Below are positions 23,547-30,464 of a stretch of 64,000 nucleotides of DNA, piece after piece (the first letter of the stretch is position 1; every line of letters begins with the position of its first letter). Source of the DNA: Verrucomicrobiota bacterium JB023 (lineage in GTDB: Bacteria > Verrucomicrobiota > Verrucomicrobiia > Verrucomicrobiales > Akkermansiaceae); the NCBI GenBank assembly GCA_030673895.1, contig JAUTCR010000005.1, forward strand, positions 310,001-374,000, read 5' to 3'. The notes under the pieces are model-generated. The model saw only the letters and a list, made by a program, of their open reading frames with translations. It made no database searches and was not told the origin of the DNA. A program made the position numbers and the translations under genes.

Positions 23547-24605
23547 TTGAAAATTCTTTCCGCCAGTGAACAGGTTGCCGCGCACCTGAAGAGATCGATT
23601 CAAGAAGGCCAGTGGTCCCGCTACATCCCGGGAGCGAAACGCCTTGCCAGCGAATTGAACGTCAATACCAAGACGGTCGAATCCGCCCTCCTGATTCTCG
23701 AGCGCGACGAGATCATCATCAATCAGGGTCCCGGCAAACGCCGGCTCATCATGCCCACGACCACGGAGTCCTCCCGCCAAGCTCGGGTCGGCATCCTTCT
23801 CTACGAGCAAGCGGATCGCCAGGTCCCTTATCTCATTGAGCTTCAGCACGCCCTGACCAAGGCGGGACATAGTGTCATCTTCGGGGAAAAGTCTCTCGTT
23901 CAGACGAAGATGAGGCTCAGCGCCATTGAGAAAACCGTTGAGCAAACTCCGGCGGACATCTGGCTGATTGTTGGTGGCCCCCGTCATGTCCTCGAGTGGT
24001 TTGCGGAGCGCCCGGAGCCCTCCTTTGCCATCTTCGGGCGCAGCTCCGAGGTCAATATTGCCGGCGCGGGTCCAGACAAGGCTCCCTGCTTTGCCGAGGC
24101 CACCCGAAAGCTCATCGGGCTCGGCCATCAACGCATCTCCCTCATCACCCGCAAGCTCCGCCGCCAGCCCACGCCCGGACTGTGTGAAAGAGCCTTTCTT
24201 GCTGAATTGGCCAAACATGGTCTCCCAACCAGCGACTTCAACCTGCCCGATTGGGACGAGTCGATTGAGGGACTCCAAGGCCTCTTGAAGTCGCTCTTCC
24301 AAGTGACTCCGCCGACGGCCCTCATCGTGGATGAAGTGCCTTTCCTCATCACCACCCTGCAATTTCTCGCCAGTCGCGGCCTGAAAGTCCCCGAGGACGT
24401 CTCCCTTGTGAGCAACGAATTCGACCCCAGCTTCATGTGGTGCAAGCCGACCTTTGCCCACGTCAACTGGAGCTCACGACGCCTGGTGGATTCCACCCTC
24501 CGCTGGGTCGATGCCACCACCCGTGGCAAGCAGACCCGCCGTCAGATCCGCCTGCAAGGCGAGTTCATCATGGGCGAGACCATTGCCCGGGCCAAGGGCC
24601 GTTAG
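23547..24605 (+). CDS. GntR-headed, LacI-like sugar-type transcription regulator
   Basis: The 352-residue protein has an N-terminal GntR-type winged helix (about 5-75: QVAAHLKRSIQEGQW, then LASELNVNTKTVESALLILE) and a C-terminal periplasmic-binding-protein fold (about 80-345) as in LacI repressors, with the typical VGILL strand, ALIVDE and DVSLVSNEFD. This hybrid is common in Verrucomicrobia near glycan genes. It probably senses a sugar and controls the neighbouring sulfatase/DUF6288-like genes, but its site is not seen. The start is TTG at 23547, 26 bases after the preceding open region; no good RBS is visible. Confidence 0.88.
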   Translation: MKILSASEQVAAHLKRSIQEGQWSRYIPGAKRLASELNVNTKTVESALLILERDEIIINQGPGKRRLIMPTTTESSRQARVGILLYEQADRQVPYLIELQHALTKAGHSVIFGEKSLVQTKMRLSAIEKTVEQTPADIWLIVGGPRHVLEWFAERPEPSFAIFGRSSEVNIAGAGPDKAPCFAEATRKLIGLGHQRISLITRKLRRQPTPGLCERAFLAELAKHGLPTSDFNLPDWDESIEGLQGLLKSLFQVTPPTALIVDEVPFLITTLQFLASRGLKVPEDVSLVSNEFDPSFMWCKPTFAHVNWSSRRLVDSTLRWVDATTRGKQTRRQIRLQGEFIMGETIARAKGR

Positions 24606-24615
24606 CAATCGGTCC

Positions 24616-25608
24616 TCAATCCGCATAGCGTGCCACCAAGGACTCTCCCACCGACGCCAGCCGGCGGCGAAGGGCGACCGGCTTCACCACCTCCACGTGT
24701 GGCCCCCAGCTCAAGACCCAGCGCTCGACCTCTTCCAGATGAGTCAGCTTAAGGGTCAACTCGAGTTCGCCCCCCTCGAGTTCCTTCCTCTCCTCGCTCT
24801 CGTGCCAAACCCTCTCCCGCACCAGCGCCGCGGCCCATGCATTGAAGCGAAGAACAACCCGCATCACCTTCTCTCCCCCGCCTCCTCCGAAAACCCCGAA
24901 GCTTCCTTTAAGGAACTGCCGCGCGCTGAATTGCTCCGGTCGCTGGAACTTCTGCCTTGTTAGCTTCACCCCGCCAATGCGCCCCAAGGCAAAAGTTCTC
25001 TCAGCCTCCCTGACTTCATCCCAAGCGAAGAGATACCAAGCCCCGCCGACATGCGCCAGATGCCAAGGCCGGACCCTTCGCTGCTCCTCCGCCTCCGCTC
25101 CCGGCTTCCGATAAGCGAATGTCACCACCGTCCTCTGCTTGACCCCCTTGGTCAGAGCGTCGAAGACTTCGGCGTCTGCCTGCACATTGCCTTTCTCCAA
25201 GATGCTCAAGGCTTCGCTCACTTCCCCCCACTCCACATCAAAGCTCATTTCCGCATAGACAGAGATTCGCTTGACCGCCGTCTCCAGCTGCTCGCCCAAG
25301 GGTGTGCCCCGCAAGGCCCCCGCCGCCCTCTCGGCTAAGAACAAGGCCACCAATTCGCCTTCGCTCAACTGAGTCACCGGCAAGTCAGGCAGAGGCCCCG
25401 TCAGGGTGTAACCGAACTCGGTGGAGTGATACTCGATGGGAGCCCCCAGCTGGTCTCGCAAGTAGTCGATGTCGCGCTGGATGCTCTTGGGCGAGACGCC
25501 ATAATCCATCGCCATCCGCTGACAATTGGGATAGTCGCCACTCTGGATCTGGGCCAAGACCCACATCGCCCGATTCACCGATGCTTTCCGGCTGTATCCC
25601 TCCGTCAT
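24616..25608 (-). CDS. WYL-domain transcription regulator
   Basis: The 330-residue protein has an N-terminal HTH (about 5-70: MAMDYGVSPKSIQRDIDYLR, typical of the DeoR/YafY type) and a WYL domain (about 150-240) with VTFAYRKP, RVRPWHLAHVGGAWYLFAWD and FALGRIGGVKL, then a C-terminal WCX-like extension with RFNAWAAALV. WYL proteins bind nucleic-acid or nucleotide ligands and often control phage-defence or DNA-damage genes. It is transcribed away from the vWA/helicase operon, with a palindrome in the 204-base gap. It converges with the GntR/LacI gene, ten bases apart. Confidence 0.92.
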   Translation of the reverse strand: MTEGYSRKASVNRAMWVLAQIQSGDYPNCQRMAMDYGVSPKSIQRDIDYLRDQLGAPIEYHSTEFGYTLTGPLPDLPVTQLSEGELVALFLAERAAGALRGTPLGEQLETAVKRISVYAEMSFDVEWGEVSEALSILEKGNVQADAEVFDALTKGVKQRTVVTFAYRKPGAEAEEQRRVRPWHLAHVGGAWYLFAWDEVREAERTFALGRIGGVKLTRQKFQRPEQFSARQFLKGSFGVFGGGGGEKVMRVVLRFNAWAAALVRERVWHESEERKELEGGELELTLKLTHLEEVERWVLSWGPHVEVVKPVALRRRLASVGESLVARYAD

Positions 25609-25655
25609 GGGAGCCTGTTTACGACATCAAAAAAAATTAGGCAATCTTTACCCTG

Positions 25656-25670
25656 GGACACTCTCTGTCC
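25656..25670. promoter_or_regulatory. inverted repeat, candidate operator of the WYL regulator
   Basis: GGACA, a 5-base spacer CTCTC and TGTCC form a perfect inverted repeat in the divergent gap, 47 bases from the WYL start and 142 bases from the vWA start. WYL regulators with this HTH type bind such sites; assignment to this regulator is an inference. Confidence 0.45.
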
Positions 25671-25812
25671 TACCCCACCTGCTAGAAACGGGATGTCTGC
25701 GCGAGTTGCGGTGCGGGTCCCGAGTCACCTTCCCCCACCAAGGCCATGGGTCTCGGCTGAGCCGGGGCCTGCACGGCAGCCCGTCGCAGGCAAATTCATC
25801 CAACAGAAAGAC

Positions 25813-26478
25813 ATGAACAACGACCTAACCGAAATCGCTTTCATCCTCGACAGCTCCGGCTCCATGCTCGCATTGGCGCAGCCCGCCATTGATGGCTTCA
25901 ACAGCTTCCTCGGAGACCAGCTCGCCGCCCCCGGCCAAGCGCGACTCTCCCTCGCTCTCTTCAATCACGACTATTCCCTCCCGGTAGCCTCTCTCCCGCT
26001 CGAAGATGTGCGGGAGCTCACCCCTGCGACCTATCGCCCCTCGGGGACGACGGCGCTCCTCGATGCCATTGGCCGAACCATCGACGACTTGGGGAAACGG
26101 CTGGCTAATATGCCCGAGAATGAGCGCCCCGGGCATATCGTGGTCGCCATCTTCACTGATGGACTGGAGAATTCGTCAACCGATTACACCCTTGCCCAAG
26201 TTCAAAGCCTGATCACCCATCAGACAGAGAAATATAATTGGGAGTTTCTCTTCCTCGCTGCCAATCAAGACGCCCTCGCCACGGCGGCTAGGATGGGAAT
26301 TCCTGAAAAAAGTGCCTCCACCATCGAATTCTCCCATGAGGGGCTAGCTAGTAGCACTGAAGCGTTCTCATCTAGCATCAGGGAATCCCGCAGCATGTTA
26401 TCCGAATGCGGCACGGTAGCGAGAGAAGAAAAGGTCGCCCTGAGTGAAGAATATGAGGCCTCTAGAAAGCGCCGTTAA
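25813..26478 (+). CDS. von Willebrand factor A domain protein
   Basis: A 221-residue soluble protein that is nearly all one vWA domain. The metal-ion-dependent adhesion site is complete: DSSGS (Asp13, Ser15, Ser17), a Thr in PSGTTALLDAIG and Asp in IFTDGLEN. No signal peptide, so it is cytoplasmic. The pattern (TEIAFILDSSGSM, then GGFN-like DGFNSFLGDQ, ALFNHDY) matches a widespread stand-alone vWA family. Such proteins often work with AAA or helicase partners. ATG 25813 has AGAAAG ahead of it; the frame is open much further upstream but that part has no conserved look. It heads the cassette with the two helicases and faces the WYL regulator. Confidence 0.88.
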   Translation: MNNDLTEIAFILDSSGSMLALAQPAIDGFNSFLGDQLAAPGQARLSLALFNHDYSLPVASLPLEDVRELTPATYRPSGTTALLDAIGRTIDDLGKRLANMPENERPGHIVVAIFTDGLENSSTDYTLAQVQSLITHQTEKYNWEFLFLAANQDALATAARMGIPEKSASTIEFSHEGLASSTEAFSSSIRESRSMLSECGTVAREEKVALSEEYEASRKRR

Positions 26479-26495
26479 AAAAAATTCCCCCCTCC

Positions 26496-26558
26496 CCGAA
26501 CGCTGGCCTGCGGGCCAACTCCATCGCAACGAGCAGCGGTCCCAGTGCCAGCGTTCGG
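26496..26558. repeat. 12-bp inverted repeat with 39-base loop between vWA and helicase genes
   Basis: CCGAACGCTGGC (26496-26507) and GCCAGCGTTCGG (26547-26558) are perfect complements. Within the loop CTGC and GCAG can pair too. An A7 run precedes the left arm, so on the minus strand a T run follows. It could be a terminator, an attenuator or a structured RNA. Confidence 0.6.
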
Positions 26559-26636
26559 TTTCTCTACAAGTCATCCTTTTGGGCAAGAGATATCAATTTG
26601 ACTTCTCAATTGGCGGAGGTTGGTTAAGCAGTCTTT

Positions 26637-28388
26637 GTGTCTTACTTCGCTGACCAATCCGGTCATTCCTTCATTGCCAACCTTCGCGAAGACACTCTCC
26701 GCGAAATCGCTACCGCGAAGAGCCAGCTGCAGGACATTTGGTCCCTCCCCTTGGAGACGCGGGTCAAGAAAGGTCATTCACTCGGACCTTTGCGAACTCT
26801 GCGTTTATCCGACAAGCGACTTCACTTATCCCATGAGACCGCGCTCTCACGGGATAATTTCTCCCGAATCCGTGAGGGGGATCTGCTCCGTCTGACCGCC
26901 AATCTTCCGGAGACCAGGGGCTGCCGGGCCTCCTTCTACGAGGACGATGGAGAGACGATCACCGTCGAACTACTTGATGCCCTGCCCGAGACCCTCCCAA
27001 GCACGGGATTGACTCTCGATCCCGACTTTTTTGATCCCACGGATCGCTTCCTGGCCGCGCTAGACGCCTTGCAGACCACTGAGCATGGTCGCGAGGTTGT
27101 CCTCCCCCTGCTCGAGGGCGGGCAAGATGGCGCCACCGATCTGGAGACCTATGAGGACGAGCTCGACGCCCTCGAGGCGCTCCCTGCGGACGAGCAATTC
27201 CATAGCTCGCAGTCCGAAGCCATCGCCCTCTGCATCGCGGCTTCCCGCTTCCATCTCGTTCAAGGACCTCCGGGAACAGGGAAAACCCATGTGCTCAGCG
27301 AGGTGGCAGCCCGCTTGATCGCCAGGGGGCACCGGGTGCTGCTGACCGGCCCCACGCACCGTTCCATCGACCATGCCCTCCGGGCCTGTCGGCGACGCAT
27401 CAGTGCCGAAACCCCAATCGCGAAGATTAGCCGGGTCAACTTCGATCCAAGCTCTCCCGTCGCACACTTCGAGAGATTTTCAGACGCCGAGCTTCCCGAG
27501 GACGCGCCCTATCTCATTGGCTCTACCCCGCACAATCTTTGGTCGAGTGCAAGCGGTCTCATGAGCCAGTTCTTTGATACCGTCCTCCTTGATGAGTCCT
27601 CTCAACTGACGCTCATGCTAGCGACCCTCGCCCTTCTGCGAGGAGAGAGATTTCTCTTCTTTGGTGACCACTGCCAGCTGCCCCCGGTCAGGCTCTCCGC
27701 CTCTCTGCTCGATACCGAAAGTCAGTCCATCTTCCTCAAACTGAGAAAGGCCGACTCGACCACCATGCTGACCGAGTCCTGGCGTCTCAATCGGGAACTC
27801 GCTGAATGGCCCTCCGCCACCTTCTATGACAATCGTCTGGAAGCTCGCTTTGATCGCCGGCTCTCGCTCTCTCCGGCTTCTCCCCATCCCGCCCTGCAAC
27901 CATCACCCAGCTTCGTGGCCATCCGTCATGACGAGGAGAATGCCACCAGCCGTTCCGCCGAGGAAGGGGAACTGCTTGCCGAGCTCATCCTCGATCTTCT
28001 CCGCGGCGGACTATCCCCCTCCGAGATCGCCGTGGTCACCCCCTTTCGCTCTCAAGCGGCACTCATCCGGCGCATTCTCAGGACCCGGTCCGAATTCTCC
28101 GACTGGCCCGTCCGGGAGCTGCTCGCCGACACCGTGGAGCGCTTGCAGGGTCAAGAACGAGAGGTGATTTTGATCTCCTTCGCCGCGTCCCAGAGCGACT
28201 TCATCCTTCCTCTTGCCAGCTTCCTCCTTGACGAGAAGCGGCTCAACGTCGCCATCACCCGGGCCCGCCGCAAGACGATTCTCATCCACTCGCAGACGCT
28301 TCTCGCAGTGGCCCGATCCTTGGCAGACTCCGAAGGCGACGAGGCCCGGGGTGCCAACGCCTTTTGCTCTCTACTAGATAATCCGTAA
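26637..28388 (+). CDS. UPF1/DNA2-like superfamily 1B helicase
   Basis: A 583-residue helicase. Motifs in order: Walker A GPPGTGKT (210-217), motif Ia GPTHRSIDHAL, Walker B LLDESSQLT (DESSQ, 319-323), motif III FGDHCQLPPV, motif IV TPFRSQAALIRR, motif V DTVERLQGQEREVILI and motif VI LNVAITRARRKTIL. These are typical of the UPF1-like group of 5'-3' helicases (COG1112). The first 190 residues include a beta-rich region (about 75-115) that looks like the OB/1B-type domain of this group. It starts at GTG 26637. Only 24 bases separate it from the second helicase, so the two are cotranscribed. No nuclease domain is visible. Confidence 0.9.
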   Translation: MSYFADQSGHSFIANLREDTLREIATAKSQLQDIWSLPLETRVKKGHSLGPLRTLRLSDKRLHLSHETALSRDNFSRIREGDLLRLTANLPETRGCRASFYEDDGETITVELLDALPETLPSTGLTLDPDFFDPTDRFLAALDALQTTEHGREVVLPLLEGGQDGATDLETYEDELDALEALPADEQFHSSQSEAIALCIAASRFHLVQGPPGTGKTHVLSEVAARLIARGHRVLLTGPTHRSIDHALRACRRRISAETPIAKISRVNFDPSSPVAHFERFSDAELPEDAPYLIGSTPHNLWSSASGLMSQFFDTVLLDESSQLTLMLATLALLRGERFLFFGDHCQLPPVRLSASLLDTESQSIFLKLRKADSTTMLTESWRLNRELAEWPSATFYDNRLEARFDRRLSLSPASPHPALQPSPSFVAIRHDEENATSRSAEEGELLAELILDLLRGGLSPSEIAVVTPFRSQAALIRRILRTRSEFSDWPVRELLADTVERLQGQEREVILISFAASQSDFILPLASFLLDEKRLNVAITRARRKTILIHSQTLLAVARSLADSEGDEARGANAFCSLLDNP

Positions 28389-28412
28389 CTCTCAACAACA
28401 TCCACCCTCCCT

Positions 28413-30464
28413 ATGGCTACGCTTATTCCCGAAAAGCCTTCCGGCACCACCACACCAGCGGTTGCCCGGCTTTTTCGCATTCTCAAGAAGCTGCCTGACA
28501 GCTTCACCGTCTGGCACAACTTTTCTCCGGACCAGCCCCATTTCCTGGTTCTTAACGAGCAACACCAGGCTTTCCTCATCCATGTCGCCGAGACGTCGGA
28601 AGAGTTGGCTCGTTCGGCTATCCAGCTCGATTTGTTAGCTGATGCGGAACAGGTGAGTCCTGACACCCTCGCCTCCGGGGAGGTCGAATTGTTAGCCAGC
28701 TTCCCCCTGCCTTCGGAGACGACCATCAGTCGGCTCCTGGTCTTTCCCAACGCGACCCAAGACACCCTTGACCAGATAACAATGCAGCGCTCCCAGCACT
28801 CCGAGGTCCGGTTTCTTGGCTTGGAAAGACAGAGCCCGGATGACTTCATCGCCTCCCTTGAGCAGCTTGCCGGCAAGCCCCTGCCCGAGCCCAAGCTCTT
28901 TAAGATTCGAGCCCAATTCACCCCGGAATCCGTCATCCCCACCCACCAGCGCCCTACCCTCATTGAGCGGGAAAGGGCGTCCTCGGAGAGCCCCATCTTT
29001 CTCGATCTCGATCAGGAAAAGCTGTTCAAGCAAGACCTGCTCCTGCCTCCTCCAGGCGAGGATCTCACCTCGACCTCTCGCCTGGTGACCGGGCCCGCCG
29101 GCTCTGGCAAATCGCTGGTGCTCCTCCATCGCGCCATCCTGGCGGCTCGCCTCAACGAAGGTGCACGCATGCTGATTCTCACCCATAACAGACCGATCAG
29201 CGTCCAGCTCAAGGAACGCTTCAGGGGCCTCGTCCCCCAAGGGGCGAAGGTGGAGTGGCGCACCTTTTTCTCTTGGGCCACGTCGATCATCAGGCCAGCC
29301 GAGACGGTCATTGGTGACGGCAAATTCCGCAATCGGCTCGCTTTGCTCAAGGCGACAAGGCCGGACTTGGGCAAGTTCACCGTCGACTTCCTCGCCGATG
29401 AGCTCGACTACCTGCGCGACCTCGGGGTCCGCAGCAAGGATGCCTATCTCTCCCTCGAGCGCTCGGGGCGATTGACCGCCCTGCAGGCTCCCGCGCGGGA
29501 GGCCATCTGGCAGCTGTTAGTCGATTACCGTCACGAGCTTGAGCGGGACAAGCTACTAGATTGGCCCGAGGTCGCCTTACGCTTCGAGGATCAGATTCGC
29601 CAAGCTCCAGAAAAGTTGGCTCCCGGCTACGACTTCATTTTCATCGATGAAGCCCAGTTCTTCGCCAAGATCTGGTTCGCCCCCGTCCTCTCGGCACTCA
29701 AGGGCAACGGGCAACTCTTCCTCTCCGCCGACCACACACAGGGCTTCCTCAAGCGGAGGCAGACGTGGCGCGACCTTGGTATCGATATCATCGGCCGGGC
29801 CCATCGCTTGGGTCGAGTCTATCGCTCGACCCGGCCCGTTGCCTCGGCAGCCCGCAATTTCTTCCTCAACCGGCAGCCAGTCAGCGCGGAAAAGGATCTC
29901 GCGGATATCCCCGACCTCTTGACCCCGGAGGACATCGCCAAATTGCCCGAGGGAGAATCGATCCATTTCTTCCGCTCAGGCTCCAAGGCTCAAGCGGTTA
30001 AGAAAGCGGCTGAGCTTGTTCGCCGTCAGCTTGAGGCCTCTCCCCGCTTGCGGGGCAACATCCTCGTTATCGAGGCGGATTCTTCCAGACTCGCGGAGAC
30101 AAGAGACACACTCAGGACCGAACTGGGCGCAGGCACCGTTCACTATCTTCAAGCCAAGTCCAGTGAGCGTCCCCCGGACGATCCCTGCTGCCGCCTGAGT
30201 TCTCTGAATGCCGCCACAGGTCTGGAGGCAACCAGCGTGATTCTTCTGGGTCTCGACACCCTCTTGGAAAAAGAAGGGGATCCCACTCTCAGTGCCGAGG
30301 CCGCCGCCGAGCTTCGACACTCCCAAACCCGCCTCATCTACGTCGCCCTCACCCGGGCCATCGCGCGACTCTCCATCGTGACCGAGCGAAGTGACCAATG
30401 GAAGAATCTGCTCGGGCTGGCGGCAAAAAAGAGCAGCGGACCCGAGCTTTGCCAAAGCACGTAA
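28413..30464 (+). CDS. UvrD/REP-like superfamily 1A helicase with NERD-like N-terminus
   Basis: A 683-residue ATPase. The core is of the UvrD/Rep type: Walker A TGPAGSGKS (227-234 for the P-loop), Walker B FIFIDEAQFF near 410, motif III-like QLFLSADHTQGFLKRR, and motif VI IYVALTRAIARLSIV near 640. The first 200 residues begin with a pattern (AVARLFRILKKLPDSFTVWH, FLVLNEQHQAFLIHVAE) like the NERD nuclease-related domain that precedes similar helicases, but the catalytic acidic and Lys residues of NERD are not clearly present, so activity is doubtful. It follows the UPF1-like helicase by 24 bases; two different SF1 helicases in one operon behind a vWA gene is unusual. Confidence 0.85.
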   Translation: MATLIPEKPSGTTTPAVARLFRILKKLPDSFTVWHNFSPDQPHFLVLNEQHQAFLIHVAETSEELARSAIQLDLLADAEQVSPDTLASGEVELLASFPLPSETTISRLLVFPNATQDTLDQITMQRSQHSEVRFLGLERQSPDDFIASLEQLAGKPLPEPKLFKIRAQFTPESVIPTHQRPTLIERERASSESPIFLDLDQEKLFKQDLLLPPPGEDLTSTSRLVTGPAGSGKSLVLLHRAILAARLNEGARMLILTHNRPISVQLKERFRGLVPQGAKVEWRTFFSWATSIIRPAETVIGDGKFRNRLALLKATRPDLGKFTVDFLADELDYLRDLGVRSKDAYLSLERSGRLTALQAPAREAIWQLLVDYRHELERDKLLDWPEVALRFEDQIRQAPEKLAPGYDFIFIDEAQFFAKIWFAPVLSALKGNGQLFLSADHTQGFLKRRQTWRDLGIDIIGRAHRLGRVYRSTRPVASAARNFFLNRQPVSAEKDLADIPDLLTPEDIAKLPEGESIHFFRSGSKAQAVKKAAELVRRQLEASPRLRGNILVIEADSSRLAETRDTLRTELGAGTVHYLQAKSSERPPDDPCCRLSSLNAATGLEATSVILLGLDTLLEKEGDPTLSAEAAAELRHSQTRLIYVALTRAIARLSIVTERSDQWKNLLGLAAKKSSGPELCQST

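Follow-up and report, generated by a model that had tools for sequence, protein, structure and literature searches.

The four adjacent genes at positions 24616–30464 of the window fall into two separate pairs, each conserved on its own, and this genome (G000) is the only one in which the two are found together. The window is the whole 64-kb stretch of DNA analyzed (G000:C5:310001-374000), and its source is congeneric with Roseibacillus persicicus KCTC 12988 (G001). The first pair, module A, consists of a WYL regulator and a stand-alone vWA protein, and the second, module B, of two helicases, Hel1 and Hel2. The reading that we favor, and hold to be fairly probable, is that of two independent modules lying side by side, with Hel1–Hel2 a mobile anti-phage operon of two motors and WYL–vWA a separate regulatory pair. 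The remaining 58 kb of the window hold ordinary chromosomal genes, and an inspection of the gene list by eye revealed no further recognizable defense gene elsewhere in the 64 kb.

Open reading frame coordinates and Pfam matches (WYL/WCX, VWA, AAA_11/AAA_12, and UvrD-helicase) confirmed all four genes and the anatomy described in an earlier note on this DNA: a WYL gene divergent from a vWA gene with a complete MIDAS, followed by a UPF1-like and then a UvrD-like helicase. The WYL-WCX transcriptional regulator (24616–25608, minus strand; 330 aa) matched Pfam WYL (7.9e-20) and WCX (9.6e-15) and weakly HTH_11; its top PADLOC match was a CRISPR-associated WYL model (PDLC01457, 2e-40), and its relatives in the PDB are PafBC and other WYL regulators. 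On the plus strand, the vWA open reading frame was listed from 25426, but homologues align from the ATG at 25813, giving a protein of 221 aa with its stop at 26478. The Pfam VWA match (2.7e-4) fell just short of the cut-off, while the MIDAS residues D13-S15-S17, T80, and D116 were invariant in an alignment of 20 sequences. With this start, the two genes are separated by 204 bp (25609–25812), presumed from the recurrent divergent arrangement to be a shared promoter/operator region; an operator search found no inverted repeat of at least 8 bp within it, and a promoter scan no sigma-70-type match. A GntR/LacI-type regulator gene (23547–24605) is convergent with the WYL gene and lies 10 bp from its stop codon. 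In G001, the nearest relative of this gene is found at another place (C7); the two species therefore differ in the segment that precedes the helicases.

Hel1 (26637–28388, plus strand; 583 aa, GTG start) is a UPF1/DNA2-like SF1B helicase, with Pfam matches to AAA_12 (9.2e-30) and AAA_11 (3e-23), top PDB profile matches to DNA2 (5.5e-55), SMUBP-2, and UPF1, and the motifs GPPGTGKT, DESSQ, QGQE, and RLNVAITR all intact. Hel2 (28413–30464, plus strand; 683 aa) begins 24 nt after Hel1 and is a UvrD-like SF1A helicase (Pfam UvrD-helicase 9.7e-11; top PDB matches UvrD/PcrA), likewise with intact helicase motifs. Of the degenerate NERD start suggested earlier for Hel2, a faint resemblance is left: the N-terminal ∼190 aa had no Pfam NERD match, a comparison with genuine NERD domains was weak (hhalign probability 53%, E 1.3e-4), and the ExK of the catalytic D...ExK signature was missing from all seven Hel2 N termini aligned. 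Judged by sequence, the region is probably a catalytically dead NERD-like domain. A single-sequence AlphaFold2 model of Hel2 was unusable (pLDDT 36), and the NERD-fold-compatible helix–three-strand–helix order that it gave for the N terminus carries no evidential weight.

To compare gene neighborhoods, we scanned 84,980 species genomes for the vWA gene and examined the best 80 vWA loci over up to 10 kb on each side; neither Hel1 nor Hel2 was present at any of them. Conversely, no WYL or vWA gene was found at the 14 other helicase-pair loci (∼255 kb, one locus being partial), where the sole weak match falls within a helicase gene, and the vWA-based and Hel2-based searches of relatives gave nonoverlapping neighborhoods. 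In the sister species G001, the helicases occupy the same site with no WYL–vWA pair upstream, and its own vWA gene is on another contig. The earlier claim that the four genes form one unit was thus not upheld, and as the combination is absent from all 80 vWA loci and all 14 other helicase-pair loci, we rejected the single four-gene unit. The outcome of the co-occurrence test set beforehand was split: the linkage of vWA to the helicases failed, but that of helicase to helicase held at every full-strength Hel2 match.

The region between the modules also contains a possible boundary. The 158 bp separating the vWA gene from Hel1 include a perfect 12-bp inverted repeat (26496–26507 and 26547–26558, plus strand) followed by TTTCTCT, which is present as a single copy in the genome and folds better than nearly all shuffled sequences (RNA fold z = −2.8). 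It looks like a terminator, though with a long loop and a weak T-run, and was unlisted by a simple terminator scan with a loop limit of 8. The hairpin and the absence of WYL–vWA from the sister species together suggest that the pair is a late and optional addition to the site. One could still propose that all four genes are one regulated defense system, in which WYL senses infection and vWA and the helicases act together: the genes are adjacent and, the WYL gene excepted, co-directional; co-directional genes, often with defense functions, are usual downstream of WYL–vWA, such that the helicases could be the current cargo; and distances of a few hundred base pairs from vWA to the next gene are seen among WYL–vWA loci. 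Given the lack of co-occurrence in either survey, the helicases standing without WYL–vWA in the sister species, and the intervening hairpin, we regard a single system as improbable.

The helicase pair itself is tightly conserved. Among 388 Verrucomicrobiota genomes, strong Hel2 matches (E<1e-130) showed a patchy distribution and were found in nine, each time with Hel1 directly upstream, while none of the weaker UvrD-like matches had this neighbor. Adding relatives found earlier and three Vibrio plasmids gave 15 helicase-pair loci, in all of which the gap between the genes is −59 to +37 nt, the overlaps being perhaps overstated by the starts of the ORF caller. Both reading frames are open throughout, with no stop codons, and the protein distances of Hel1 and Hel2 are strongly correlated (r = 0.956; reached by 0 of 2,000 permutations). 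The ATPase motifs are intact wherever a simple motif scan was able to read them, Walker A in all 30 proteins; a few variants of Hel1 motif II or VI lay outside the scan pattern, and the annotated Hel2 of L174 is C-terminally truncated. A phage origin of the helicases was considered and rejected, with no Hel2 relative among viral contigs or phage records.

The surroundings of the pair link it repeatedly to defense islands or mobile elements. On the Vibrio coralliilyticus plasmid pOCN014, it is placed between Gabija (GajA 4e-217, GajB 1.5e-266) and Septu (PtuA 1.5e-148); on V. parahaemolyticus pVPTW011, whose proteins are 35% (Hel1) and 27% (Hel2) identical to those in the window, the neighbors include a type IV HNH protein, an integrase, and Abi, and on a V. 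nigripulchritudo plasmid, a toxin–antitoxin pair and HipA. Of the other loci, G375 has HsdR, HNH, a GIY-YIG (PDC-S14) protein, and a phage integrase next to the pair, G211 HsdM/HsdS, G277 a zeta toxin, G242 Fic, and G147 an apparent transposase. In total, about half of the 15 loci have defense- or mobile-type neighbors, and about half ordinary chromosomal ones (G000, G001, G016, G044, G050, G054, and G401). The pair precedes ccoG-tauE-ccoI in both G000 and G001, with DNA identity of 66–74% across the block, a conservation of the sort expected of a resident chromosomal gene.

This last pattern bears on whether Hel1–Hel2 is instead an accessory of DNA repair or replication, acting in damage tolerance or in the clearance of R-loops and collisions. 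The nearest solved relatives, DNA2/UPF1 and UvrD/PcrA, would fit such a role, as would the conserved position beside ccoG in two Roseibacillus genomes and the housekeeping-like neighbors at about half of the loci. We nevertheless consider a nondefense role unlikely, as the pair is patchily present, is carried on plasmids, and is placed time and again beside Gabija, Septu, restriction-modification, integrase, and toxin–antitoxin genes. From this context, Hel1–Hel2 is probably an undescribed two-gene, nuclease-less candidate defense system.

Under the favored reading, a mechanism can be outlined. Helicases of the UPF1/DNA2 family are 5′→3′ motors and those of the UvrD/PcrA family 3′→5′ motors, and motors of opposite polarity placed on opposite strands travel in the same direction along a duplex, as in RecBCD. 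The tight operon, the co-inheritance, and the lack of a live nuclease led us to propose a dual-motor complex: Hel1 and Hel2 would most likely assemble into one complex and, by analogy with RecD and RecB, advance together along a duplex, each motor on its own strand, unwinding or stripping invading DNA or its replication intermediates. The NERD-like region of Hel2, lacking ExK, would serve binding or assembly, and degradation would be left to host nucleases, unless the block acts on replication.

The WYL–vWA pair has a different distribution. A WYL gene lies within 4.5 kb of vWA at 31 of the 80 best loci, with none at 4.5–10 kb upstream in any of the 80; the paired genes are mostly divergent, often with their starts at most 200 bp apart. 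The distances of the vWA and WYL proteins correlate at r = 0.86, a value reached by 0 of 2,000 permutations and to which shared species ancestry contributes. The gene following vWA is co-directional at 22 of 26 loci with WYL vs. 27 of 45 without (Fisher p = 0.036). At L142 and L140, unlike at other loci, the WYL and vWA genes share the same direction, and a large AddA/UvrD-like protein and a partner gene lie upstream, divergent from them.

What follows or adjoins the pair is often a defense system. According to PADLOC and Pfam, Cas3/Cas8 genes adjoin it in type I-C (L074, L136, and L143), type I-E (L128), and type I-G (L082, L111, and L141) contexts, and L054 has a Cas3/Cas8/Csb-like operon assigned to type I-G by sequence clustering with the other I-G loci. 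The same two sources placed BrxC beside the pair in L146, DruE in L107 and L056, and AbiEii in L107, with a type I methylase (L097), a type IV restriction enzyme (L114), a C5 methylase (L116), and PDC-S41 (L099) nearby. By our own count, defense-type neighbors are found at ∼14 of the 31 loci with WYL. Among the first three downstream genes at these loci, Cas3 accounts for 6 of 65 proteins, while among the 25 families listed for the 65 downstream proteins of loci lacking WYL there is no Cas model, a control that is imperfect in that some of its loci end just upstream and L133, beside an I-G operon, was left out, and in that the 25 families are part of a longer list. Scattered single PADLOC matches to BrxL, MTases, MzaB, and DpdE occur at the control loci. 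In G001, the vWA gene has a divergent WYL gene of a second, related type and is followed by SIR2_2 and HerA; SIR2–HerA is a known combination. Two tandem vWA copies occupy the same site in L073 (R. persicicus, contig NZ_BMXI01000005, ∼8.9–15 kb). One family, identified by Pfam as DUF932 in L091, follows WYL–vWA in both L091 and L146, in the latter before BrxC. In L041/L056 (G043), the vWA gene is a pseudogene, shifted in frame and interrupted by a stop codon, next to an intact WYL gene and adjoining DruE- and DpdE-like helicases.

The vWA family as such is not specific to defense, as it is common without WYL (49 of the 80 loci) and occurs in large phages (213 phage records). Large phages of Streptomyces, Microbacterium, Pseudomonas, and Gordonia commonly carry stand-alone relatives at ∼37–48% identity (records H21–H40). 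Both features would suit a proposal that the adjacency is functionless for module A and the pair a passing accessory with no effect on its neighbors. The tight linkage to WYL, the correlated divergence, and the recurrent placement beside unrelated defense systems are hard to reconcile with it, and we think it very improbable. The best reading of WYL–vWA is a separate, transferable, defense-associated regulatory pair that stands beside many different anti-phage systems. With Hel1–Hel2, this means that genomic context supports the earlier suggestion of a defense link for both halves of the locus.

In such a pair, the WYL protein would be a transcription factor responsive to a ligand, a nucleic acid or nucleotide, and the vWA protein a metal-dependent protein-binding partner or adaptor. 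PafBC, triggered by single-stranded DNA, is an example of a WYL protein as a sensor of this kind (PMC11804915). Module A, upstream of the resident helicase pair, may have taken over control of the helicases in G000; such pairs habitually precede defense genes, which makes this control plausible, with our own leaning slightly the other way. Somewhat unlikely is the fuller proposition that Hel1–Hel2 is a new nuclease-less system of opposed polarities and WYL–vWA a new plug-in regulator common to many defense systems that controls the helicases here. If true, one plug-in pair would be common to CRISPR-Cas types I-C, I-E, and I-G, BREX, Druantia-like systems, and restriction-modification, and could explain how a single control module serves unrelated defense systems. 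The locus offers two candidates for direct testing: a compact nuclease-less defense whose action would rest on a pair of helicase motors, and a vWA partner of WYL regulators found repeatedly alongside CRISPR-Cas, BREX, restriction, and SIR2–HerA genes.

Both pairs look undescribed in the open-access literature and in the 2023 PADLOC, and newer defense catalogues could contain either. PADLOC (2023) has no model specific to Hel1–Hel2, and neither the helicase pair nor WYL–vWA was found described in the open-access papers searched. The enrichment of WYL proteins near Cas genes is already known (PMC4012209), as is the occurrence of BrxR-type WYL regulators beside diverse defense systems (PMC9122601, PMC9122588); a vWA partner is unmentioned in these three and in the other open-access papers searched.

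Among known systems, Gabija is likewise a two-gene defense system with a UvrD-like SF1A helicase, but the partner of Hel2 is a UPF1/DNA2-like helicase and not an OLD-Toprim nuclease. Matches of Hel2 to GajB models are weak (1e-8), and the four-gene block has no GajA-like OLD-family nuclease, Hel1 being AAA_11/AAA_12. With MkoA of Mokosh, Hel1 shares the AAA_11/AAA_12 RNA/DNA helicase core (PADLOC 1.7e-41); however, the models are 1,112–1,607 aa long vs. 583 aa for Hel1, the helicase part alone was matched, the partner of Hel1 is UvrD-like, and no MkoB/MkoC-like gene was seen beside it. The NERD–UvrD helicases (PADLOC C3a187 and RTasNERD-Hel) resemble Hel2 in the N-terminal layout and the UvrD core (C3a187 5.2e-23), but Hel2 lacks the ExK catalytic residues, is paired with Hel1, and has no reverse transcriptase. 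The closest mechanistic parallel is RecBCD, which likewise combines one SF1A and one SF1B motor of opposite polarities by family, and by their sequences both motor types are present, intact, and co-inherited in Hel1–Hel2. The operon differs in being two separate small proteins with no RecC subunit, RecB nuclease domain, or Chi-type domain.

For module A, the MoxR–vWA conflict systems and TerY-P also use a vWA protein (PMC7159879), but the neighborhood of vWA in the window has no MoxR AAA+ ATPase and no PP2C or kinase gene. The BrxR/CapW regulators are HTH-WYL-WCX proteins found beside diverse defense systems (PMC9122601, PMC9122588). The WYL protein studied here has the WYL and WCX domains and a weak HTH, and related pairs adjoin defense systems; it differs in best matching a CRISPR-associated WYL model and in having a divergent stand-alone vWA partner. 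A helicase-based defense candidate with a WYL-type regulator belongs to kinds already known and is not a new kind.
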